From assembly GCA_033439765.1 (NCBI GenBank), contig JAULSN010000002.1:3410001-3474000 (forward strand): 64,000 bases of DNA, given 5' to 3'. The position numbers and the translations under genes were made by a program. Shown here piece after piece: positions 1 to 63,710 of the stretch. The DNA is from Lasiosphaeria ovina. Lineage: Eukaryota; Ascomycota; Sordariomycetes; Sordariales; Lasiosphaeriaceae. Position 1 is the first letter of the stretch; every line of letters starts with the position of its first letter. A model generated the notes under the pieces. The model had not been told where the DNA came from and searched no databases. It worked only from the letters and a program-made list of their open reading frames with translations.

Positions 1-1229
1 TCGAGGAAATGACGGCGCGCTGTGGGGTGGCACGGCGAGGATGCCATCGGCTGTATGTCAGCCTCGAACATTGCCCGCTGATGCATTTACTATGTAGTGA
101 GCCGCTTGTAAAAGTGGGCCAATCCCGCCAGGCGCGCTCAATTTGGTAACCTGATGTTGGACGGCAATCATTAAAGATGAAGGTGCTGCGACCGCCCGCT
201 GCGATGGCTCCTATTAAAGAGCCGTGAGAACACTGAACACGACAGCTCTCCGCCCCCTGTTGAATCAACGTATTCCGCCGAGTGCCGGAAAGTGCTGGTC
301 TTGTCGTTGTCAAGCTTCCACGAGGCGTGGTTTGATCTTCCCCACGACGGTGGAATGAAATTTGAATAAAAAAAGAGGTAGGGGGGATGAAGAAAAAGAA
401 GGGAAAAAAGGCACTTTGACTGGCGGTCGTGGCCATGGCCGGCCCCAAACATAGGACGTTCGGGGTGGTTCGTCATTGGGCCGGCCATCCATGGATTGGT
501 TCAGGATCGTCCCGTGGCTTGCCTTCTTTGAGTGGGTGTGTGGTGTCGGAATTGGGGACTGGAAAGTGGCAAGTGCAAACCGTGGTCGGGCTACGGGACG
601 AAGTTGGCTCCGTACTCAATGACAATAAACAAAATGCGGGGCTGCGGATAATTAACGCACATAACGCGATTTCGCACATGATTGGTGAAAATTGGGCCCC
701 GGTGCCGCACTAGCGGGGCCAACCCATTACCTCCGGGGTCTTTGACGGAGATGCGGGCACTTCGTAACGCACTTCAAATAGTTGCGTCGCACGACTTCCC
801 TAACGTGGCAAAGCTTGCCGCGCCGTGCGCCGTGTCCCCGCCCCGCATGCCAGGTTCGGAGGGTTTGAAGTCCGTTCAAATGGAACCGTGTGCCCGTATT
901 CCGCATGTACACACAAATCCAATCTTGAGAAGAAAATCACTCCCAGGTGCCGTTCTAATACTCAAAAGACGTGGGATTTCCTCACTAAAATATTACACAT
1001 GGGGACGCCATTTCTTTTTAGAACCAGTTCCCCTCTTCCCTCTTGCCGGAGCAACGGACACTCGGACTCGATTCATTTTTGTCCAAACAAGCTTTTCACA
1101 CGTTGGTTCCAGGAACTTGCATGCGCCGCACGCGCTGACAAGCAAGATGCGCGCACTGCACAGGACCAACCCGCAACCCATCCCCCTTGTCCCTCATCCG
1201 ACTGATATTAATTGCCTGCCGTCACGGAC
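1..1229. other. Left-edge intergenic region
   Basis: I see no gene I can support here. Several open frames overlap on both strands, but none shows a recognisable domain, codon bias or splice structure. The last few hundred bases should hold the promoter of the alpha/beta hydrolase that follows. The first ~150 bases could be the tail of a gene lying off the left edge, but nothing proves it. Confidence 0.5.
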
Positions 1230-2543
1230 ATGCTGCTTCGCACTCTTCAATGCGCCGGTGTCGCCGTCGGGGCCGCGCTAGGGCTCTACCTCGCCTTCGT
1301 GGCGCTCCTCGCGGTTCCTGCGTTACAGGACCAGGTGATATACCTGCACAGCGTCTCGCTGACATGGTTCCGCGACCTCAATGCGCCCGAGCAGTTCGGC
1401 TTCCTGCCCAACCAAGTCACCCCTTTTACCCTCGACACCGCCGACGGCGAGCGCCTGCACGCCTGGCACGTCCTGCCCCCGGGCCTATACCACGAGCATG
1501 AGGCTCAACTATGCGCCGAGCCCGCCGGCCTCGCCAACGGCAGCGAGATCGCCCGGCGCCTGGCCTTCCGCCTGCTCCGCGACGACCCAGACTCGCTGCT
1601 AGTGCTCTACCTGCACGGCGCCGGCGGCACGCTAGGCTCGGGGTGGCGCCCGGCTTCGTACCGCGCCATGTCGGCCGCATCGCCGCGGAACAACATCCAC
1701 ACGCTCGCCATCGACTACCGCGGCTTCGGCGCCAGCACCGGCCGCCCCTCCGAGGCCGGGCTGCTGGCCGACGCGCTGGCCCTAGCGCGCTTCGCTATGC
1801 ACGACGCCGGCATCCCGCCCGACCGCATCGTCGTCTTTGGCCACTCACTCGGCACGGCCGTCGCGACGGCGCTCGTCCACCGCCTCGCGCACGCCGCGCC
1901 CAGCTTGTCACAGACTAGAGAACGGGATGATGAGCCCCCCATCTTCCTCGCCGGCATGGTCCTCGTCGCGCCGTTCACCAGCGTCGAGCAGCTCACCGCC
2001 ACGTATCGGCTGGCGGGCGTGGTGCCGCTACTAGGGCCTGTGGCGTATTATTTCCCACGCGCCATGGTGTTTCTGCACTCGTGCATCCACGACAAGTGGC
2101 CAAGCACCGAGCGTTTGGCGCAATTTATACGCGCCGCCGAGACCCAACACCGCCAGCAGCAGCTTGTGTCTGCATCTAATGACCAACAGAAACAGCAACG
2201 AGAAACCAAAGCAAGCAGCCGCCCGCAGTACCACGTCACCATCATCCACGCGCAGGACGACTACGACATCCCGTGGACGCACGCGGCGAGCATGTTCCGG
2301 CACGCCGTGAACGCGACGACGAGCCGTGATGATGAGACGACGAGCCGTGATGATGAGCATGACGATACGGCGCGCGGCGAGTTCGACGAGTTCCGGTCTG
2401 GCGACGCGGTCGAGTGGCGTGCGCCGGCGGGGGTGCTGCGCGCGGTGGTCCCGCGCTTCGGCCTGCACGACCGCATCATGGCGTATCCCGTCGTCAGCCT
2501 AGCCGTGCTGCGGGCGTTTGAGAGCGCGGGCAATGGTGGTTGA
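1230..2543 (+). CDS. ABHD12/Bem46-like alpha/beta hydrolase
   Basis: Single-exon protein of 437 residues, probably a membrane-anchored serine hydrolase (lipase or thioesterase type). The first ATG is at 1230; the frame opens slightly earlier at a TTG, which is not a likely fungal start. Residues ~8-32 form a hydrophobic N-terminal anchor. The hydrolase core shows an oxyanion-side LYLHGAGGT motif, the AIDYRGFG motif typical of ABHD12/Bem46 proteins, and the nucleophile elbow GHSLG with Ser206. A late acid in HAQDDYDIPW and a C-terminal GLHDR histidine complete a plausible triad. Between elbow and acid lie a Q/K-rich insert and a short DE-rich duplication (TTSRDDE twice). ABHD12 relatives cleave lysophospholipids or monoacylglycerols; the substrate here is inferred only. 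Confidence 0.85.
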   Translation: MLLRTLQCAGVAVGAALGLYLAFVALLAVPALQDQVIYLHSVSLTWFRDLNAPEQFGFLPNQVTPFTLDTADGERLHAWHVLPPGLYHEHEAQLCAEPAGLANGSEIARRLAFRLLRDDPDSLLVLYLHGAGGTLGSGWRPASYRAMSAASPRNNIHTLAIDYRGFGASTGRPSEAGLLADALALARFAMHDAGIPPDRIVVFGHSLGTAVATALVHRLAHAAPSLSQTRERDDEPPIFLAGMVLVAPFTSVEQLTATYRLAGVVPLLGPVAYYFPRAMVFLHSCIHDKWPSTERLAQFIRAAETQHRQQQLVSASNDQQKQQRETKASSRPQYHVTIIHAQDDYDIPWTHAASMFRHAVNATTSRDDETTSRDDEHDDTARGEFDEFRSGDAVEWRAPAGVLRAVVPRFGLHDRIMAYPVVSLAVLRAFESAGNGG

Positions 2544-2920
2544 GATTACGTATTTAGGGTCGGATGACGATTTCATGAGACGGCTTGGCAGCGAAACACA
2601 CATAACAGGGCTGACCCGAACCGGCAAGGTGATGACGTGAGCTTCCCTTGCCTTACCTAACTAGGTGTGACGTGAATGCCCCGAGAAAGCACATGCCAAA
2701 TGTAATGTGCATGCATGTTGTATTAGAGTTATTACGGGTGCCCGCACAGTCGAGAAGTATTACCAGATCTGGATATGACTCTGGACTCGGGCAGCCCTTG
2801 AACCTTGTACTACGTATTTTGGAACAAATGCTACTGAATATATACTCTTGAATTAGTTAACATCAGCTCACCTTACCCGAGCATGTACTACTTTCGAACC
2901 ACACTACTTGAAAAATTACT
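2544..2920. other. Convergent intergenic spacer
   Basis: This 377-base stretch separates the convergent hydrolase and membrane-protein genes. It should hold both 3' ends. I see no coding frame of note. Confidence 0.5.
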
Positions 2921-5224
2921 TCAAGGCGCCGCCCTATTCCGGTGTCCGACCATGAAATGCATCGCGGCACGGATCCCCGCAGCCGGGAACCCCTTGCCCG
3001 CCTTGGCCCTGAGGGCGGCGGCAGAAGCCGCTCCCTGCGCGGGCACTTCGTGCCAGGTCTCGCCTTCCCTGAAATCGTGCCGGCGGGGCCCTTGCCGGTC
3101 GTGGCGCTGGGTGGCCGTCTTGTCATCGAGCACCGACACGTTGTCGTCATCGTCGCGGAACACGCGGGGGCGGGCGCCCGGGCGCCGTGCGGGTTTTCTG
3201 CCTCGCGGCGGGACGAGTCTGTCGCCGCCGTGGGCCGCTCCTGGCGGGAGCGGCGGTGTCGCGTTGACGACACGCGCGCTGTGGCCATCGAACGGCGGGG
3301 GGTTGGGCCCGTTCGGGTCGAACCCTCCCGCCGTTCCCGGATACATTCCCGCCGTTCCCGGATACATTCTCGCCGTTCCAGGATACATTCCCGCTGGGGG
3401 GTGGCGGGCGGGGGGGTAACTACCTCCCCCTAGTCCTGGCCGGCCCCCTCCGAGCCCCCCGGCGGGGTAATACTCCCTAGGGAGACCCGCTATCCCTGGC
3501 AGGCCCGCTCCGAGCCCCCCAGCGGGATACTCCCTGGGGAGAGCTGGTATCCCTGGCGGGCCTGCTCCGAAACTCCCGGCGGGGTATTCCCTAGGGAGGG
3601 CCGGAATGGCTGTAGAAGGTCCAGTCTGTGGGTATGGGGACATGGTGAAACGGGGATACTGTGTTGTTTGTTCCTGGAATCCGCCGGAGGCTGGTGGAAG
3701 TGGTGGGCCTGCCGCGTCATTGTCGGGCGGCTCGGCGTCGACGATGGTGATTCCCGGGATGCTCGCGCCGTTGTGGTTAGGTAGCTGCGCAGTTGCTGCT
3801 GCCGGCGATCCGACATGGGCCCCGGCTTCATGTTGACTTGGTCGCCTGCTAGGCATCAGCCCGGGCCGGTGTTGTCGTCGAGGGGATCGGGGGCTGTCGG
3901 TTAGCCCGCGAGACGATCGCCCGCTGCCGACAGACTCGCTTCGGGATTGTGCGTTCTCTGTTGGTGTGTGTTGTCGAGGTGTTCCCCGGGGAGACCGAGA
4001 TGCGCTGGGCGTGTCTTGCGACAAATCTTGGCTGCCAATCGACTCGCTTCGGGTTTTTTGATGGGACGTAGTCTTGTGCTGTTGAGGCGTTGCTCGGGGA
4101 GCACCCGAGTGGTCGGATGCTGGTTCGCTGCCCGGTTTGGTTGCCGGCTTGGCTGTTGGCTTGGTTGCCGGAGATCCGATCGTCTGAGGCTGGGACTTCA
4201 TGTCTTTACTGTCTGCCCCTGACGGTTTGGTCTCTGGCCCTTTCTCTCCTGGTAATTCTGCATCTTGTGTTTCACCGCTTGACGCTGGCTCCTTTGTAGG
4301 TTCCCCATCTATTGGTTTTGTTATTGATAGGCCTCGAAAAGCTAGTTCTTCAGACACTTCTCGGCCGGACTTGTCTGCCTTTGGCTCATCCTTGGAAGGA
4401 TTTCCTGATGACCCTTCTGGCTGTCCATCCTTTGGCTCTGACGGTTGATTCTGACCTGAATCTTTGTTATCTGACGTCTGTGTCTTCTCTACCTTCCCCT
4501 GTGGTTTTGGCTGTTCACCATCCCGTTGCTGGGTTGGTGGTGGTTGGAATTCGCCTCCCGACTTGCCGCCTTTATCCGGCTTGCGTGCGGATTCTCGAAT
4601 TTCTGGGTGAGGTGCTGGTTGTCTCTCTGGTCGTTGTTCTGGTCGCCGTGATGGTGATGTGCTCAGGCTATTCGGCGGGCTCCTCGACGGGCTCCTCGAC
4701 CGCTCGGCATTGGATTGATTTGGTGGGGGCGACGGCGGGGCCGGAAACGGGGCTCGCATGCCTGTTTGGTGGGGGAAGACTGGGCGCGGCGGCGGGCGGA
4801 TGATTGGATCCTCTCCTCGAAGTGGAACATTGTCCCAGTAGTTGTTTGCAATAGACGGCGGCCGGCGATAGGGGCTGTCGCCCGACCCGTCAGAGTCTCG
4901 TTTGCGGCGAGAGTGTCGGTGCCGCGGGCGCTGGCTCCAGCCATTCCGTCGGACCGACCGGAAGCAGCAGCACAGCAGTATGCAGATGAAGCCGCCAACC
5001 CCAACGAGAACTCCGACAATGATCTCGACCTGTGCACGCGTGATGCCGACTCCGTCCGAGCTGGGGGCTGGGGTTGCGGGGAAGCCCGCAGCCAAGGTAG
5101 CGGTAGCAACCTGGGTTGTTGAGGAGCGTATGATTGTCTGGATGACTGTATGCTCTGGCGACGGAGAAGGCTCTTGGCGGGCATGGACCGTCGCGTCTAC
5201 CGGTGAGCCGCCGAGCACGACCAT
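2921..5224 (-). CDS. Single-pass membrane protein with long proline/serine-rich cytoplasmic tail
   Basis: About 767 residues from the first ATG at 5224; the open frame reaches ~5340 without another ATG, so an upstream exon supplying a signal peptide is possible. The order is a Ser/Thr/Pro-rich N-terminal region, one transmembrane helix (residues ~67-88, IIVGVLVGVGGFICILLCCC), a basic stop-transfer segment, and then a very long low-complexity tail. The tail is rich in P, S, K, E and Q (many PKPQ, SPSR and ATKP runs). Near the C-terminus it has short tandem repeats: three PREYPAG-type units and three MYPGTA units. The topology resembles fungal Wsc/Mid2-like sensors (extracellular Ser/Thr region, one helix, disordered cytoplasmic tail), but no WSC domain is visible. 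Function is not recognised. Confidence 0.6.
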   Translation of the reverse strand: MVVLGGSPVDATVHARQEPSPSPEHTVIQTIIRSSTTQVATATLAAGFPATPAPSSDGVGITRAQVEIIVGVLVGVGGFICILLCCCFRSVRRNGWSQRPRHRHSRRKRDSDGSGDSPYRRPPSIANNYWDNVPLRGEDPIIRPPPRPVFPHQTGMRAPFPAPPSPPPNQSNAERSRSPSRSPPNSLSTSPSRRPEQRPERQPAPHPEIRESARKPDKGGKSGGEFQPPPTQQRDGEQPKPQGKVEKTQTSDNKDSGQNQPSEPKDGQPEGSSGNPSKDEPKADKSGREVSEELAFRGLSITKPIDGEPTKEPASSGETQDAELPGEKGPETKPSGADSKDMKSQPQTIGSPATKPTAKPATKPGSEPASDHSGAPRATPQQHKTTSHQKTRSESIGSQDLSQDTPSASRSPRGTPRQHTPTENAQSRSESVGSGRSSRGLTDSPRSPRRQHRPGLMPSRRPSQHEAGAHVGSPAAATAQLPNHNGASIPGITIVDAEPPDNDAAGPPLPPASGGFQEQTTQYPRFTMSPYPQTGPSTAIPALPREYPAGSFGAGPPGIPALPREYPAGGLGAGLPGIAGLPREYYPAGGLGGGRPGLGGGSYPPARHPPAGMYPGTARMYPGTAGMYPGTAGGFDPNGPNPPPFDGHSARVVNATPPLPPGAAHGGDRLVPPRGRKPARRPGARPRVFRDDDDNVSVLDDKTATQRHDRQGPRRHDFREGETWHEVPAQGAASAAALRAKAGKGFPAAGIRAAMHFMVGHRNRAAP
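3331..3393. repeat. 21-bp minisatellite, three copies, in coding sequence
   Basis: Three head-to-tail 21-bp units (3331-3351, 3352-3372, 3373-3393) differ at only one or two positions. On the minus strand they encode MYPGTA(G/R) repeats of the low-complexity membrane protein. The length is a multiple of three, so copy-number change keeps frame. Confidence 0.9.
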
Positions 5225-5806
5225 GGGCCGCTCATCGGCTTGCGGCTCGGCAAGCCCAAGGAACACTGGCGACGTCGCAGAAAAACAATGGTCGAGGGAA
5301 GGCTCAGTCGGGTCGGGGAGGGATCGCGGCGCTTTTCATCATGGGGAATACTCGACCCCTGGTCCAGCTGTCTTCCGTCTTCCGTCTTTCGCCTCAAAGT
5401 ATTGAGCCAGTGCGAATTACATCGGCTGCTACAGTGACTAACGCCCAATCAGTGCGGAGACCTGCAGTTGCCTTTCGATAGTCTCTGCTGCAATTGTTCT
5501 GCAGGGTGTCGCATAGGGCCGGATAAGCGGTCTTGGGAGCATTGCCGCTGGCGCCGGCGCAACTCGTCCCCTCTTTCGTCTGACTGCATCATGCAGCTAC
5601 TATCACGTACCCACACCACCCTCGGCCGTGCCCGCACTCGAGTCTTTGCGTCTCGCAAGGCTGTGGGAGTCGGTGTCGGTAGGGAATTTGAATGGCCGCA
5701 TGTCCGTGTCTTCTTGCATTGTTCGCTTGGGATGTTCTAACAAGCAGTACTGCACACCCCCAGGGCTACTGTGAAAAACGTAACCAGGAAAGCTTCGGCA
5801 ACCACA
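5225..5806. other. Divergent intergenic region upstream of the gasdermin-like gene
   Basis: About 580 bases between the starts of the membrane protein (-) and the gasdermin-like gene (+). It should contain both promoters. An in-frame GTG at 5771 extends the gasdermin frame, but the ATG at 5807, in a good CCACAATGTCC context, is the better start. I recognise no specific regulatory site. Confidence 0.5.
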
Positions 5807-6727
5807 ATGTCCGGGTTCAGCAAGACCTACTTCGCCATCCCCACCACCATCTACCAGCCGGACGACTTGATCCAGCTGGGTCAGGTGATAAAGGACCCGA
5901 CCCTCCCGTTTGAGCGCTTGGCGCCTCCGCCCAAACTCGAAGGTGCACTCAAGCCCAGGATATCCTCGCTCAAGGAGTGTGTCGTCACGAGTCAGAAGAC
6001 CAGGGCTATGTCGGTTGGCCTTGTCGCCCATGCCCTAGAATTCATCAACAGCGAGCTATCTGCAGAGAAGTCGTCCGCGGAGACGCTCACATGGGAAGCT
6101 GCTGAAATCGAGACGCACTTCTTCGAGCCGACTGCCGACGATAGCTTCATTGCACAGCTCTGCGCGAACAAGGCGGTGCGGCAAGGCCTCAAGAGGTTCG
6201 GCTTCGGGCAGTCAGCCTACGTCATTACGGGCCTCAAGATTGCCCTCAACCCGGGGCCTGTCAGCTGCCGCGTCGACCACGGAGCCGGCGTGTCGGCGCA
6301 GTTGGCAGCTGTTGTTGACCCCACAGGCGCCATTCAAGCTGGGGTGCAGGCAAGTTCCACTCGAACAGCCGGCGTGTCGGTCGAGGGCAAAGCCACCCAC
6401 AGCTACGTGTTCGCGTACCAGCTTCGCAAAGTCAGCGTCAATCCGGTGACTGGTAAAGCTGCCATTGGCGCACAAAGGAAGGGAGGGGACTTGTACGGGA
6501 TTGAAGACGACGCCGGCTCCGACAGTGACCTCGATTGGGACGAAGACCTTGACAGCTCAGGTGACGATGAAGACGAGGAAGCAGCGGGTGCGGCATCTCT
6601 GGAGCTCGCCAAGGGCATCTCGCTCGATGGTGAAGACTATGGGGCTAAATTGCCCGGGGCAGTGTTTGCGAGGGACAAGGTTGACATTGGTGACGAGGAC
6701 AAATATTATCTTGTCAGGCCAAAGTAA
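5807..6727 (+). CDS. Fungal gasdermin-like pore-forming protein (RCD-1/HET-Q1 type)
   Basis: Single exon, 306 residues from ATG 5807. Fungal gasdermin-like proteins oligomerise in membranes and cause regulated cell death, often in allorecognition. The fold signature I rely on is an N-terminal segment (residues ~1-45) with the DLIQLGQVIKD strand and a basic/proline strand PFERLAPPPKL, as at the start of gasdermin N-domains. A TGLKIALNPGP strand at ~141-151 follows. An alternating beta-rich hairpin-like stretch (~152-197) runs into the closing THSYVFAYQLRKVSV strand (198-211), comparable to the end of the gasdermin pore-forming domain. Residues ~226-306 form a tail with a dense D/E block (232-259). 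The gene is tail to tail, 173 bases from a subtilisin-like protease, exactly the known gasdermin context. Identification rests on motif resemblance plus context, not alignment. Confidence 0.8.
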   Translation: MSGFSKTYFAIPTTIYQPDDLIQLGQVIKDPTLPFERLAPPPKLEGALKPRISSLKECVVTSQKTRAMSVGLVAHALEFINSELSAEKSSAETLTWEAAEIETHFFEPTADDSFIAQLCANKAVRQGLKRFGFGQSAYVITGLKIALNPGPVSCRVDHGAGVSAQLAAVVDPTGAIQAGVQASSTRTAGVSVEGKATHSYVFAYQLRKVSVNPVTGKAAIGAQRKGGDLYGIEDDAGSDSDLDWDEDLDSSGDDEDEEAAGAASLELAKGISLDGEDYGAKLPGAVFARDKVDIGDEDKYYLVRPK

Positions 6728-6900
6728 TGGATGTCCGGGGTTCTGGCTCGAAAAGATAGCCCTTGCTTGACTGACTTGGACGGTTGGACCTTGACGTGCT
6801 AGAATTGGTGTTTTATCTAGTCTACCTCCCATTCTGTATTTACTTGTGAAGGTCTGCGACGCTCACAGCAACGGTTGAACAACCCCTTTTGCCGCCGTGA

Positions 6901-9900
6901 CTATAATCTGTAGTCCCCGTTGATGGCCTCGGTTAGACGGACCGTGAAGAAAAGATCGTAGGTGAGTTGGTAGTTGTTGATCTCCTCTTTCAAGCCGCCT
7001 GCCTTGTTGTTCCTGTTGTCAGGTCTGAAGTAGAAGATGCTCCCCGTATCAGAACGCGGCGGATGCAGATAGAGGATGGGATTGTTGCCGCTTGACTTGA
7101 TGCTCATGCTTGTCAGAATATGCCGGACCGAGCTGATGGTTTTGAGCTTGTCGGCCGTGCTTATGAGCCTGAGGTCGATTTGGTCCCTGTGCGTGTTGTA
7201 GAACTGATAGATGATGGCCACCATGGCGGCCGCGATCGGGGTCGCAAACGAGGTCCCGCTCATGACAGTCGACGTGTTGCATTTGGAAGAACAAGAGTGC
7301 TCGGCTTGGGCTTGGGCTTGAAGACTCTTGGTCTTTCGAGCCGGCTTACACTTGAGCTGTACCTTGTCCCCAGCGTTCTTGGCAAGATGTCCTGGCCAAA
7401 TGGACTCGATGTCGCGGCCCAGGGTGTGGAAGCTATTGATGTTATCTCGTGGTGTTCCCGTCGTCGCGTCTGGCATTGCAAAAGCGGTACAGTTGTAGAT
7501 CTTGAAGACGCCGTCTTGCATGGCCGGAAACGGCAGTACTCTGCTGTTTCCCGAGTTCCCGGTTGCAGCAAGGACGATGACATCGTTGTAAATAGCGTCC
7601 TTGAGCTTCCCCGTAACAAACGCATCCTTTTCGCACCCAAAGGAGATTGAGATTATTTCAGACTTCCACTCCTTGACGGCGTATTCGATTGCCTGTTTGT
7701 GAAGCAGTGAAGCAGCGCTCGCGTCAACAAGTGAGCCACAACAAACCACGATTTATAGCGATCTATTCACGTACCTTGCCGACTCTGTATGAGAGATGCT
7801 GTGGGTCGTCGTTCTGGATTGAACTGCGCGTTTTCCCAATCCTTGCAACCGACAGCTCAAGCCCTGGGACCAAGTTGAGGAGCAGCCCCGCGATGAAGGT
7901 GCCGTGGCCATCCTCGTCCACGGGAACATCCAGGCTGGGGTCCGTCGGCTCGCCCTCTTTATCATCACCAAACTTCCTATCCGAAAAGTCACGGAAGCGA
8001 GAAGGTTTGTCGGCGGGTTGTCCCCCCTTGGCGCTCCACTTCCACAATTTGCTAATTTTCGGGTGGTCGGTGCTGATCCCTGTATCTATGACAGCTACAC
8101 GAGCTCTGAGGGGGTAAGACGCGCTCGTGTTTGCCAGCGTCTTACCCGAAAATTCTTTCATCGTTTCCATCCACTGGGAGCTGAGGCTTCGCGGATCACC
8201 AAATGTCAGCCAGACGCTAGGAGGTGAAGCTAGGAGGTGAAGCCAGGTGTTCGGCTGCTTACTCGCTGGGCTTGGCATGATTCGCGTCGAATAGCGCCCC
8301 GGACACTCTATTGCTCGTATAGGTCCCAACCTCGTTTTCATCGTCTTCCCCGTCGCTGAAGTCTTCAGTAAATCCGGTTTCGCCTGTCCCGTTAGATAAA
8401 CCTAAACCTGTGGTACAATAGATGGTGTGTTTGACTTACTTCGAGCAAGGGAGTCAGGCAGCTCGGGCTGGGTGCTGTCCTCGTTCTGGACTTTTTGCTC
8501 GCGTTCAATCAGATCTTTGACCTCGGTAGCTTCGCTCCGCTGGCCTTCGTTGGATGACATGACTTTGTTCTTTTGCTGGCTATCCTTTGCGGCCCGGGCT
8601 TCTTCCCACAACCGAGCTTCTTCCGATAGCCGAGCTTCTTCTGACAGCCGAGCTTCTTGAGCGAGCGGCTCTTTTTCTTTACGTCGAGTTTCTCTTTCCC
8701 ATTGCTGCGCTTCGTCTTGGGAACGCCGCCTCTCCTCGGCCAGCCTTGATTCCTCGGCCATCCTAGCTTCTTTCGCCAACTGAATTTCTTCGGCAAGTCG
8801 AACCTCTTGAGCCAGCCTTTCTTTTTCTTCACGCTCAGTAATCTCGAGCCTCCGACCTTCTTCGGCCAGGCGGGCTTCGGAAGCGAGCCGATCTTCTTGA
8901 GCCAGCCGCTCTTTTTCTTGACCCTCAGCGTGTAGCTTGAGTTGAAATTCGTTCTCAAGCACCCGAGCTTCTTCGGCGAGACGGACTTCCCTGGCGAGTC
9001 GCACTTCTTTGGCCAAAGGGGATTTTTCAGCTAACCCCTCTTTTTCTTTACGCTTCGCATCTTCCCTGAGCTGGGCTTCATTCTCAAGCCTCGGAGCGTC
9101 TCCGACGAGGTCAGCTTCTTCGGCCAGGCGCGCGGCTTCAGCGAGCCGCTCTTCTTCCATCCGCCGAGAGTCATCCATTTCCTGTGTTTGATCCCTGGGC
9201 TGGGCTTCTACCAACCGCGTTTCATCCTTGACCTCTTTGGAGCTCTCGGCGTGGGGCGGCCTATCTTCTTCGGCAAGCAACTCTTCTTTGGGTTGAGAAA
9301 GAGATTCATCCACGAGCCGAGCTGGGTCATTGTATTGGGGTTTCCCAACCAGCTGAATCTTATCCTCGCCCTTGAAATCTTCTGGGAAGCGGACTTTTTC
9401 TGCCAGTTGTGTTTCATCCCTGACCTTGGTGCCTGCCAGCCCGTCTTCCCCAGAAAGCCGATCTCCTGATCCTGGCAGGTTCCTTTCCCCTTGTTCTCTG
9501 GGTCTATTGTCGTCAGATTGAACCTTCTCAGGCATCTCATATTCTTTGGGTTGAACCAGACAGCTGTCGTCTGCGCTTTGGATTTCTCTGATTGGCTGCT
9601 CAGCGTCCACTGGCTGGGCTTGCGCAGTGACCATAGCGTCCAACTGAGGAAGATTCTCCTCTGCGTGCATTGTTTCTGCTCTGTCTGGGATTTCATCATT
9701 GATATCAATAACTTCTGTCTCAGTCTGCCTCTGCGCAATTGCCTTGCACCTTTGATAGAGCCTCTTCCACCGAGACAGGACACGAATGACGGTCAAGGCG
9801 GTCAACCACATCTGCTTCGCTTTTTGTTGACGCATGTAGACGTACATCTCGAGCCGCAAACTCTCGTCCCAGTACTCGAGATCCGCCAAGGTGTGTTGGA

Positions 9901-10867
9901 GGGCGACTTTGAGCCTATCGTCGGCAATGTCATGGAGGCTCGGATGGTTCCGGATCTCGTTCATTTCTGCATGGACTTCGCGAGCACGGCCCCATGCCTT
10001 CAAGTCAACAGCCAGCAGCTGAACTGTTCTAATCTTGACTTGAAGGAGCAATGTTGTCAACATGGCTGACGCTCCGGTTTCCTTGACGCTCGTAGCAAGA
10101 AGGGCTGCAGTCCTTTGAAGAGTGCCGACATGGCCCCATGAGGCGGCGCCAGTTGAATTGACAACTTTCTCGTCGGCGTGGGTTTCTGTGCAGTTTATGA
10201 TGTTCATGACCAAGGAGTCGCAAACTTTGATATCCCTCTTGAGAGATTTGGGGTCGTCATAACTCTCCCCTTGGTTGATGTTCTGCATGACCAGTGACAG
10301 AGCCCGGACCCTGGTGCCCTGCGGGTCCCGTCGTGTCGCGGCAACTTTCTTGAGCACCGGAGCCAATGCTCTCCGACAATGCAGCATATCATCGAAAAGA
10401 CAATTCTTTTCTAGGCCCCCGAGCGTCTGGGTGTATTGCTCTTCGGCCTTGTCAAACTCTTCGCAATCGGCGTAGGCGGCCGCGAGGTCCTGCCTGGCAT
10501 AAAGAATCCCGATGTCATCTTCCTCTGCCCCTTGACCTATGGCGAGCAAGATGGCGTCGAGTAGATCCTGTGCCACGGCTTTGATTTCGCTGTTCCGAAT
10601 GACTCGGAGCCTCTCCTTTTCAACATCCACATCCCTTTGCACAGCCCGCTGGGCCTCTGCCGTTTCGCAATCTTCTTCGAACCGCCGTAGGGCACAATCC
10701 AATCTCCGGTCGGCTAATTCCCGTGAAATATCCAAGGCATCTTCCCATTGTTGCGGATCGGCAGTGTGCTCGCCTGGTATTGTATCTGGGCTTCCATCTT
10801 CAAGGTGTGGTTGTGGTGGTGATAGCGATGGGAGTGACAAGGGTGGTGGCACCAACTGGTTGTCCAT
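6901..10867 (-). CDS. Subtilisin-like (S8) protease with TPR-like and coiled-coil N-terminus, HET-Q2-like partner of the gasdermin
   Basis: Four proposed exons: 10867-8440, 8383-8263, 8216-7775 and 7692-6901. The frame closes at 1260 residues. Introns are 56, 46 and 82 bases; the first has GTAAGT and a CTAAC branch site, while the 46-base one is the least certain. Residues ~1-400 are helical with a TPR-like unit (LYARQDLAAAYADCEEFDKAEEQYTQ in part, ~135-165). Residues ~440-800 are a highly charged coiled coil built of RLAEEA(R/E) repeats. The C-terminal ~370 residues are an S8 domain: AVIDTG (Asp894), DEDGHGT (His954), ATGNSGN (oxyanion Asn1043) and SGTSFATP (Ser1145). No signal peptide is visible, so it is probably cytosolic. 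Most fungal gasdermin genes lie beside proteases, and HET-Q2 cleaves HET-Q1. The same role is inferred here. Confidence 0.85.
8590..9180 (-). repeat. Degenerate coding repeats of the charged coiled coil
   Basis: The minus strand repeats short units encoding ARLAEEARL-like and KEKE(G/R)LA-like heptad-rich segments about twenty times. This gives the protease a long, even coiled coil. The units have diverged and vary in spacing, so this is an old expansion rather than a fresh minisatellite. Confidence 0.7.
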
Positions 10868-43605: not shown

Positions 43606-44481
43606 ATGCGCGCCGTTGATTGCCACCAACCCCCCGAGCTAACCAAGGACGAACTGAAGATGATTGCATTGCATTGCACCACAGAGTGTGCCATCAAGAC
43701 CAGTCGGATCCTCTCCGCCCGTGCTGGACACGAAAACATGCTTCCGCGGTGGAAGCCGCACTCAGTCGTCACCTTCGCCTTCCTCGAAGAGAGCTTTCCA
43801 ACCCCACACAACGCTGCATGTGTGGAGAGTGCACTCTCTGTTGCAGTAGACGACTGGAACAGCAGACGAATCCATGTGCGACTCCAGCGCGTAGCCCAGG
43901 ACGAGCGCCCTGTCTTCGTCGTCGCTTATAGAGGGCGGAAGCGCCAAGACTACGCCAAAGCATTCTTTCCCAACTTCAACTTCAACAAACGGGTATTGAA
44001 GGTTTTCGAGCCCGCTCTGTCGGTGGGCAGTGGCGACTTCTTAGCCGTCATCCTTTGCCATGAACTTGGCCATATTCTTGGTCTTCGCCACGATAACGCT
44101 GACGTCGTGGAGAGTGGTTATCCTTCGGTTGAGTTGACGCCCCCCAACCCGCACTCCATCATGATGTCCCCCCTGTTCGCGGGTACCAAGGTCGGCATAC
44201 AGGAATCGGATGTCAAGGCGCTCAATACCCTTTACAGTATGGACAACAAGTCCACGCTTCACGGATTCCCGGTTGTAACGATCGATCCGGGTACGCTTGA
44301 GCAACCGAGCCACGAACACTCCCGAGAGACTCTGCACGAGGAGGCTGGGCCTGCTATCGCTGGCGCGCAGGTTCCCCATGCGCAGGGTACAACTATCAAC
44401 CTAGCCTTGGTCTCGACTTTTGTCTCTTGCTTTCTCTTTTTGGTTGTGAATGCAAGGATCGCCGCGGCCCGCTCGTCATGA
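43606..44481 (+). CDS. Matrixin (MMP-like, M10) metalloprotease with C-terminal membrane anchor
   Basis: 291 residues from ATG 43606. The catalytic domain starts near PRWKPHSVVTFAF (~47-59), as in matrixins. The zinc site is HELGHILGLRHD, with His152, Glu153, His156 and His162, followed by the Met-turn SIMM at 184-187. Both together define metzincins of the M10 type. Residues ~264-284 form a hydrophobic helix near the C-terminus, so the protein is probably tail-anchored or GPI/membrane bound. No signal peptide or cysteine-switch propeptide is visible; the frame is open upstream for some distance without ATG, so an upstream exon could supply them. Fungal matrixins are uncommon and little studied; substrate unknown. 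Confidence 0.8.
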   Translation: MRAVDCHQPPELTKDELKMIALHCTTECAIKTSRILSARAGHENMLPRWKPHSVVTFAFLEESFPTPHNAACVESALSVAVDDWNSRRIHVRLQRVAQDERPVFVVAYRGRKRQDYAKAFFPNFNFNKRVLKVFEPALSVGSGDFLAVILCHELGHILGLRHDNADVVESGYPSVELTPPNPHSIMMSPLFAGTKVGIQESDVKALNTLYSMDNKSTLHGFPVVTIDPGTLEQPSHEHSRETLHEEAGPAIAGAQVPHAQGTTINLALVSTFVSCFLFLVVNARIAAARSS

Positions 44482-61628: not shown

Positions 61629-63710
61629 CGCTACGTAGGCAAGGTCAATGCCTCATTCGCCGTACAGCACGCAGCCTTCTCGATGAACGAATACCCTCTC
61701 AAGCACTCGGCAATACTGGACTCAGGCTCTACAATACACATCTTCAACCAAGTCAGCCGCTTCCTCAACATTCGGCACGCCCTCGCGGGGGAATTCGTGT
61801 GGGCTGGGGACCACAAGATCCCTATCACTGCATACGGCGAGGTGGACCTGCAAGTCAGCAATGCATTCGGAGGAAAGAAGGTCCTGAGGCTGTACAATGT
61901 GGCCCTGTGTGAAGGCATCGCATGCAACCTGGTGTCACTGCGGCGCCTACATGAGAGAGGCATGCACTGGGATAACAGCGGGGACCCCACCTACCTACGC
62001 CGCATGACGGATCAATCGGTAGTATGCGTGCTGCAGGCCCGGCACGACCAATTCGTCATTGAGCATATTCCGGAAGACCTGAGCAGGGCCGCCTTCTTCA
62101 CGAGAAGGAACCGGTTCAATTCCTACACCAAAAGGAAGCCCCGGAGCGTGAGCGCCGAAATCTGGCACCTGCGTATGGGCCACCCGGGCCCCGGCGCCCT
62201 GGAAAGACTCGTCAACACAGCTCAGGGGGTGCGCATCAAGGGCATCAAAACAGTCGAGTGTAGCGTATGCGCGCGGGCCAAAATAAAGCGACAGGTCAAA
62301 CGAGAGCCAAAAGACAAGCCTCAACGGCCCGGGGACTGCTTTGCGATTGACTTTCATGACTGGGAGCCTGACGATAAGAAGTATGACTCCCTTATGCTGG
62401 TGACCGACCGCTACACAGGCATAAGCTGGGATTTTTACACCACCGACCGGAAGCACGTGACCCTTATTGCTATTTTGGAAGCCTTCTTCAAGGAGTTGAG
62501 GGTTCAGCACAAAGTCGTACCGAAGGTCATCGAGTCAGATAACGAGCTCAAGTCAGCAGAGTTCACGGACTTCTTCAGGAGGCATGGCCTAGTCTGGAAG
62601 CCCTCGGCGCCCCGTACACAGGGACAGAACGGTGCCGCCGAGAGGGCGGGGGCGTTGGTCAAGCAGAAAGCCCTTGCACTCGCTTTGGGAGCCGCATTCC
62701 CGAACAAATTGTGGCGGGAGATCTCTCGAACGGCTGTCTACCTGCTCAATAGGCAGCCTCGCGCTCAGAATGACTGGAAGACTCCTTATCAGGCCTGGTA
62801 TTCCTTCTTCAACGGCTACACTCTTCCGTACTCAGGGCACTTGCGGGTCTTTGGCTGCAAGGCATACGCGATGACCGATAGGGCCCAAAACAAGGAAGAA
62901 CGCCTCAAGCGTTTTGAGCCTAAGGCGTGGATCGGCTACCTCATCGGCTACACAGCGACCAATATCTACAGGGTATGGGTGCCTTCAAAGAATGCAGTCA
63001 TCGTCACCCGGGACGTCATCTTCGACGAGAATACTATATTTGACGGCAAGCTAGAAACCCTGGCGCAAGACGTCCGGGAAATGGACCCTACAGCCCTCGC
63101 GAACCATCTTGAGGCCCTCACGGTTAGGGAACCTGATATTGAGGAAGTGGTAGCCACCCCCGGGGACCAGGAAGATGTCAGGGACATTACCAATATACTA
63201 GAGGATGACGACGGCGTCATAGAGGATAAGATCGTAGCGTACAGGGAGGTCCCTGAGCCACACGGAAGCCACACGGCAGGAGGGAAGGGCAGCGGGTCGC
63301 TCCCTACACCACCACAGTCGCCGCCTGCAGCTATGCTAGCCGGGGCGATTACATTATACGGGCCGGGGGCCGACCTTGGGGAAACCCGGGCAGCCAAGCT
63401 CAGTATGACGGCAGAATGCGGGCCGGGGGCTGATCCGGGGAAAACCCGGGCAGCCAAGCTCAGTATTCAGGAGCATTGGAATGGGTCTTTCCATGCAGGC
63501 ACATTGTCTTCCAGGGTAGGGACCCTAGGAAGGAAGACCCTCACGAGGGCACAGGTCGAACGGTTGCTAAAGACCCCGTTGTCTATACACCGCCGGGACC
63601 TCCCGGACCCACCGGGTCACCACGGGGACTTGAAGGACCACCCTATGGGGAACCTCTTCGAGGACGCAGAGAGGGCACATCTACAGAGTCATATAGAGAT
63701 GCGTTCGTAG
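61623..63710 (+). CDS. Copia pol: protease and integrase
   Basis: Same frame as gag, open from just after the gag TGA to a TAG at 63708-63710; the first ATG is 61683. Aspartic protease: ILDSGSTIHIFN. GAG-pre-integrase and HHCC zinc module: WHLRMGHPG ... CSVCARAK. Integrase core: Asp in CFAIDFHDW, Asp in VIESDNELKS, Glu in GAAERAGALVK, then the copia-typical FGCKAYAMTD and WIGYLIGY. After that comes an acidic linker with a 63-base duplicated stretch (GPGAD...GETRAAKLS twice, around 63360 and 63420) before the RT. Such linkers separate integrase and RT in copia elements. The TAG stops this copy before RT. Confidence 0.85.
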   Translation, partial: LVRYVGKVNASFAVQHAAFSMNEYPLKHSAILDSGSTIHIFNQVSRFLNIRHALAGEFVWAGDHKIPITAYGEVDLQVSNAFGGKKVLRLYNVALCEGIACNLVSLRRLHERGMHWDNSGDPTYLRRMTDQSVVCVLQARHDQFVIEHIPEDLSRAAFFTRRNRFNSYTKRKPRSVSAEIWHLRMGHPGPGALERLVNTAQGVRIKGIKTVECSVCARAKIKRQVKREPKDKPQRPGDCFAIDFHDWEPDDKKYDSLMLVTDRYTGISWDFYTTDRKHVTLIAILEAFFKELRVQHKVVPKVIESDNELKSAEFTDFFRRHGLVWKPSAPRTQGQNGAAERAGALVKQKALALALGAAFPNKLWREISRTAVYLLNRQPRAQNDWKTPYQAWYSFFNGYTLPYSGHLRVFGCKAYAMTDRAQNKEERLKRFEPKAWIGYLIGYTATNIYRVWVPSKNAVIVTRDVIFDENTIFDGKLETLAQDVREMDPTALANHLEALTVREPDIEEVVATPGDQEDVRDITNILEDDDGVIEDKIVAYREVPEPHGSHTAGGKGSGSLPTPPQSPPAAMLAGAITLYGPGADLGETRAAKLSMTAECGPGADPGKTRAAKLSIQEHWNGSFHAGTLSSRVGTLGRKTLTRAQVERLLKTPLSIHRRDLPDPPGHHGDLKDHPMGNLFEDAERAHLQSHIEMRS

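Follow-up and report, generated by a model that had tools for sequence, protein, structure and literature searches.

Analysis of the window—the whole 64,000-base stretch examined here, C12:3410001-3474000 of a 51.7 Mb genome in 32 contigs—supported the presence of a fungal gasdermin (fGSDM) gene facing, tail to tail, the gene of an S8 serine protease. We assign the pair to the Q2-like (Q2L) protease/gasdermin two-gene clusters, which have been described before. It is best read as a two-gene cell-death module in which the protease would activate the gasdermin (probability of about 0.8), the mechanism put forward in the initial annotation; this reading rests on the fungal gasdermin, the intact S8 neighbor, and the co-occurrence of both in other species. 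The nearest named relatives of both proteins came from fungi of the class Sordariomycetes. The two genes were located as follows:

5807-6727, plus strand: fungal gasdermin gene, single exon, 306 amino acids and a stop codon (ORF translation, fold, profile)
6728-6900, no strand: gap of 173 bases between the stop codons of the convergent genes
6901-10867, minus strand: Q2-like S8 protease gene, 1250 amino acids, four exons (10867-8440, 8383-8263, 8186-7775, and 7692-6901), intron borders chosen by alignment to the relatives P0017 and P0018

Both genes were open from end to end under the gene model used. The 173-base spacing claimed in the initial annotation was confirmed, and all three motifs by which it had characterized a single-exon protein—DLIQLGQVIKD, TGLKIALNPGP, and FAYQLRKV—were found in the 306-residue ORF.

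Pfam gave no family for the small protein at a limit of E 10 (filters drop most matches above about 0.1), so its identity as a gasdermin rests on profiles and fold. Fifteen database relatives, the protein itself excluded, were found at E <= 2.5e-7. A single-sequence search of the PDB yielded RCD-1-2 only at 0.033, which is insufficient alone; a profile built solely from orthologues (13 sequences) matched rcd-1-1 (2.4e-8), rcd-1-2 (8.5e-8), and the HET-Q1 pore chain (9uv9, E 1.1e-6), the latter covering profile positions 9-220 in the alignment. Gasdermins were also the best fold matches of the predicted model, occupying ranks 1-8 and 1-9 in two fold searches, and model residues 4-224 were aligned with RCD-1-2. 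The model was of modest confidence (pLDDT 61.1, pTM 0.57) with the tail largely unmodelled, and its Foldseek TM-scores against RCD-1 were only 0.42-0.62 with an rmsd of 5.8-6.9. The initial annotation had called this protein gasdermin-like and had named comparison with the gasdermin fold both as a check and as the test that could refute its view; the fold was found, within the modest confidence of the model, as was the relationship to RCD-1 and HET-Q1 that it had proposed to look for by profile. Fold and profile thus support the assignment of the 306-residue protein to the fungal gasdermins. MACPF, CDC-like, and pleurotolysin B folds were considered and rejected: they ranked below the best gasdermins, though intermixed with weaker gasdermin rows lower down. 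The following parts were distinguished in the gasdermin gene:

5807-6469, plus strand: predicted pore-forming gasdermin N-domain, residues 1-221 (model residues 4-224 against RCD-1-2; HET-Q1 pore chain against profile positions 9-220)
6494-6496, plus strand: Tyr230, candidate residue for the cleavage site, with an aromatic residue (Y/F) in all 13 aligned sequences
6503-6610, plus strand: acidic linker of variable sequence, residues 233-268 (commonest residue with a mean share of 0.38; pLDDT < 50)
6611-6724, plus strand: C-terminal tail, residues 269-306, presumed inhibitory element (mean share 0.56; G279, L282, and P283 in 13 of 13 sequences)

The N-domain was followed by a region of about 75-85 residues. 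In the same alignment of 13 sequences, the commonest residue had a mean share of 0.65 in the N-domain, compared with the values listed for the linker and for the last 38 residues, and the invariant gasdermin columns were intact in the window protein. A conserved end behind a variable tether would fit an inhibitory element, and residue 230 may be guessed from the alignment as a candidate cut site.

In the protease gene, on the minus strand throughout, the following features were recognized:

6904-8186, minus strand: S8 protease domain region, exons 3 and 4 (Pfam PF00082, ORFs of both exons)
8084-8086, minus strand: catalytic Asp884, codon position derived by hand from exon borders
7904-7906, minus strand: catalytic His944, codon position derived in the same way
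7555-7557, minus strand: oxyanion Asn1033
7249-7251, minus strand: catalytic Ser1135
8588-9199, minus strand: charged linker with RLAEEA-type hexad repeats (6 residues, 18 bases), residues ~557-760 (tandem arrays 8594-8658 and 8968-9013; self-match period 6)
9848-10756, minus strand: N-terminal TPR-like helical array, presumed sensor, residues ~38-340 (predicted model with pLDDT 80.7; fold matches)

Peptidase_S8 (PF00082) was above the Pfam cut-off in both ORFs covering exons 3 and 4. All four residues of the S8 protease, previously placed at Asp894, His954, Asn1043, and Ser1145, were present; an S8 protease with intact catalytic residues as the facing neighbor of the gasdermin is supported at the level of sequence, while the earlier numbers were probably ten too high. 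A gene model with introns 1 and 2 of 56 and 46 bases gives exactly these numbers, whereas alignment to P0017 and P0018 favored an intron 2 of 76 bases (8262-8187), which gives 1250 residues and the positions D884, H944, N1033, and S1135. The 46-base intron 2 was replaced after this alignment, and a 32-base intron 1 was dropped as too short, 56 bases being preferred. The closest protease, P0017 of Lasiosphaeria miniovina (86% in the S8 part), is annotated without roughly its last 60-75 residues. The annotated protein of P0018 (Mycothermus thermophilus) has a 14-residue insert at the site of window intron 3, which is probably a retained intron in the annotation.

No Pfam family was found in the first-exon ORF of the protease at the limit of E 10, with filters dropping most matches above about 0.1. 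TPR-like fold matches of the N-terminal model had low TM-scores (0.15-0.40 by query length, one search), and 14-3-3, SNAP, and designed repeats were also among its matches; because some of the matches are not TPR proteins, the repeat type of the array is not firm. The TPR-like part would be the obvious gate of the protease. Among three candidates scored, this sensor was found at one place only in the genome. An orphan sensor was considered because a search with residues 1-400, in which only 7996 candidates sharing most words were scored, gave a single protein; the idea was rejected, as the same region aligns in P0018-P0022. For the linker, a heptad coiled coil was rejected: the self-match of residues 557-800 peaks at a period of 6 (0.32), not 7 (0.11).

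Co-occurrence of the two genes was analyzed among the 12 closer gasdermin relatives (P0002-P0013). Five of them had an S8 match in the same organism on an equal-sized contig. In three of these pairs, adjacency was read from consecutive locus tags (Mycothermus VTJ49DRAFT_2459/2460, Ophiocordyceps australis CDD81_3327/3328 and CDD82_7635/7636); in the Apodospora and Whalleya pairs, linkage was read solely from the equal-sized contigs. Gasdermin/S8 identities to the window proteins in the five pairs were 60/60, 47/43, 49/43, 46/46, and 39/38%, and those of the N-terminal protease part were 44, 27, 27, and 26%, with no match in Whalleya. Within each pair, the gasdermin and the S8 part stand at a comparable distance from the window proteins, and the N-terminal part is more divergent. 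Presumed N-terminal sensors homologous to that of the window were present in Lasiosphaeria miniovina, Mycothermus, Ophiocordyceps, and Apodospora, and in Whalleya the window-type part is replaced by DUF7580.

The other seven relatives had no S8 partner among the matches of about 0.55-1.75 times the query length, the range of protein sizes admitted in the search for S8 relatives. Five of the seven are on records with the longest contig below 9 kb; long contigs carry the remaining two (Parachaetomium, 162 kb; Ilyonectria, 969 kb). None of the 16 matches of the gasdermin search was a gasdermin of Lasiosphaeria miniovina. A further protease copy of Ophiocordyceps australis, P0021 (CDD82_7503), lies on another short contig and shares its locus-tag prefix with CDD82_7636.

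At least six gasdermin loci were found in the genome with three gasdermin queries, the third of which yielded no further locus. The S8 search of the 51.7 Mb gave 32 matches, merged into 25 genes; these counts are also lower bounds. An S8 match was present within 10 kb at five of the six gasdermin loci and was absent near the sixth. The matched gasdermin and S8 stretches were separated by 420, 723, 827, 2203, and 9286 bases, with other genes intervening in the last case. Assuming even and independent placement, S8 linkage would be expected at a rate of about 0.010 per locus; at least five linked loci of six then have a binomial probability of 7e-10. This recurrent linkage, the 15 gasdermin relatives, and the gasdermins among the best fold matches place the window pair beyond chance.

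The other loci were organized as follows. At L006 (C1:2.85 Mb), a single-exon DUF7580-S8 protease (1146-3989, plus strand) and a gasdermin paralogue (4256-5257, minus strand) form a convergent pair with open frames about 266 bases apart. L007 (C23:0.56 Mb) contains a gasdermin and a DUF7580-S8 protease in same-strand tandem, with an adjoining HET-domain gene at 1294-4053. At L008 (C1:7.21 Mb; 1490-3815, minus strand), the S8 stretch comes directly after a pyridoxal-decarboxylase-like stretch (below Pfam's cut-off), and no sensor region was evident. At L009 and L019 (C3:0.64 Mb), 9.3 kb separate a gasdermin paralogue from an S8 match, and this interval contains a kinase-like and a HET-domain gene. 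The sixth gasdermin-like ORF, L018 (C12:6.20 Mb; 4531-5625, plus strand; E 9.3e-7), was found by one of the three queries and had no S8 match nearby.

Reviews place about 80% of fungal gasdermin genes in the neighborhood of a protease gene and about 60% of those proteases in S8; fusion of gasdermin-linked proteases to WD40, TPR, or ANK repeats or to kinase-like domains is frequent (PMC10197012, PMC10989679, PMC12881547). According to the reviews, a large fraction of Q2L proteases, not all of them, have a superstructure-forming repeat region next to the protease domain. The window pair is like the Q2L (HET-Q2-like)/fGSDM clusters reported from Ascomycota, in which a gasdermin lies beside a multidomain S8 protease and several gasdermins occur per genome: its protease, 173 bases away, is encoded within the 10 kb of an fGSDM gene by which Q2L proteases are recognized, and it has a predicted TPR-like array where TPR or kinase-like partner domains are reported for the class. 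Nothing in the analysis placed it outside these clusters; its differences in detail are the ~75-85-residue region after the N-domain and the hexad-repeat linker. The TPR-CHAT protease/gasdermin cluster of Podospora anserina is also similar, a TPR-bearing protease and reported activator being encoded there beside a gasdermin; its CHAT domain is a cysteine protease, in contrast to the S8 serine protease of the window.

At rest, the gasdermin would be held off by its C-terminal tail, i.e., the acidic tether and the more conserved end of ~38 residues, and the S8 protease by its own N-terminal TPR-like array and linker. Because one genome carries both genes, the protease should stay inactive in the absence of a trigger. 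On meeting a trigger, the TPR-like part would render the S8 domain active, and this domain would sever the gasdermin tail from the N-domain, with the conserved aromatic residue 230 as a possible cut site; once released, the N-domain would form plasma-membrane pores and cause the death of the hyphal compartment. We infer the cutting, pore formation, and death by analogy with HET-Q1/HET-Q2 and with the Podospora CHAT pair. Several triggers are conceivable, allorecognition among them; which stimuli activate these fungal sensors is described as a major question of the field (PMC12881547).

A more specific proposal, which we put forward tentatively and consider rather doubtful, is that the pair belongs to a distinct gasdermin/Q2L lineage that is locked in its own way: an acidic tether with a conserved C-terminal clasp, cut at the aromatic residue right after the N-domain, and a TPR-like sensor coupled to S8 by a fast-changing linker, here a hexad-repeat helical rod. 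If this were so, sensors would vary between lineages while gasdermin and S8 stay matched, and the trigger of a given lineage could be approached via natural pairs. As the class is already described, the gain is incremental: a further complete cluster, for which Mycothermus, Ophiocordyceps, Apodospora, and Whalleya offer homologous pairs occurring in nature. The similar divergence of gasdermin and protease, together with the stronger divergence of the N-terminal part, makes both the protease–gasdermin match and the sensor–signal match testable across these natural partners.

The initial annotation had termed the locus "het-Q-type". HET-Q1 and HET-Q2 of Podospora anserina are indeed similar to the window pair in combining a profile-related gasdermin (9uv9) with an S8 serine protease. 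However, het-Q1 and het-Q2 are reported as idiomorphs, distinct genes that occupy one and the same locus (PMC12881547), and HET-Q2 as a protease of 388 residues (PMC10989679). In the window, a single contig carries both genes at a distance of 173 bases, and the protease, with its long N-terminal part, comprises 1250 residues. On these points, the pair departs from a het-Q locus proper, and the term is not supported. HET-Q1 is also reported to lose 40 residues after F238 (PMC10989679), compared with about 75-85 residues beyond the N-domain in the window gasdermin. The same features make it unlikely that the pair is itself an allorecognition (het) locus, with alleles or presence/absence differing by strain and death on fusion of unlike strains: both partners share a contig in a single assembly, and the long protease with its TPR-like part is unlike the idiomorphic HET-Q2. 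We nevertheless assign this explanation a small probability, as het-Q and rcd-1 are reported to show that this gene class can turn into het loci (PMC12881547), divergence is stronger in the N-terminal part of the protease than elsewhere in the pair, and two other gasdermin loci of the genome (L007, L009) adjoin HET-domain genes.

RCD-1 of Neurospora crassa was the best sequence and fold match of the window gasdermin. Its activation is reported to follow an encounter with its other allele, to involve no proteolytic cleavage, and to need no protease (PMC12881547), whereas the window gasdermin has a protease neighbor and is longer at the C-terminus (306 residues versus 257 and 244). By analogy with RCD-1, the window gasdermin could be activated by a second allele without cleavage, the protease being a chance neighbor or acting on other targets; the sixth gasdermin of the genome without an S8 neighbor and the seven relatives without an S8 partner among the length-limited matches would agree with this. 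We consider it improbable in view of the five paired relatives with partner identities falling in step, the S8 linkage at five of six loci, and the conserved tail that the gasdermin has behind its variable linker.

A decaying or inactive pair, the relic of a cell-death module, is very improbable: a death-and-birth evolutionary regime is reported for gasdermin genes (PMC10197012) and the Lasiosphaeria miniovina protease homologue is annotated without its C-terminal end, but in the window both reading frames are open throughout under the gene model used, and neither the four catalytic residues of the S8 domain nor the invariant columns of the gasdermin show any loss.

The plasmid collection searched gave no match. 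Elsewhere in the window, an ORF with a weak match to matrixin-type metallopeptidases was found at 43606-44481 (plus strand). A piece of a retrotransposon polyprotein, presumably of the copia type, was located at 61683-63710 (plus strand) and contained GAG-pre-integrase, integrase core, and SH3-like domains.
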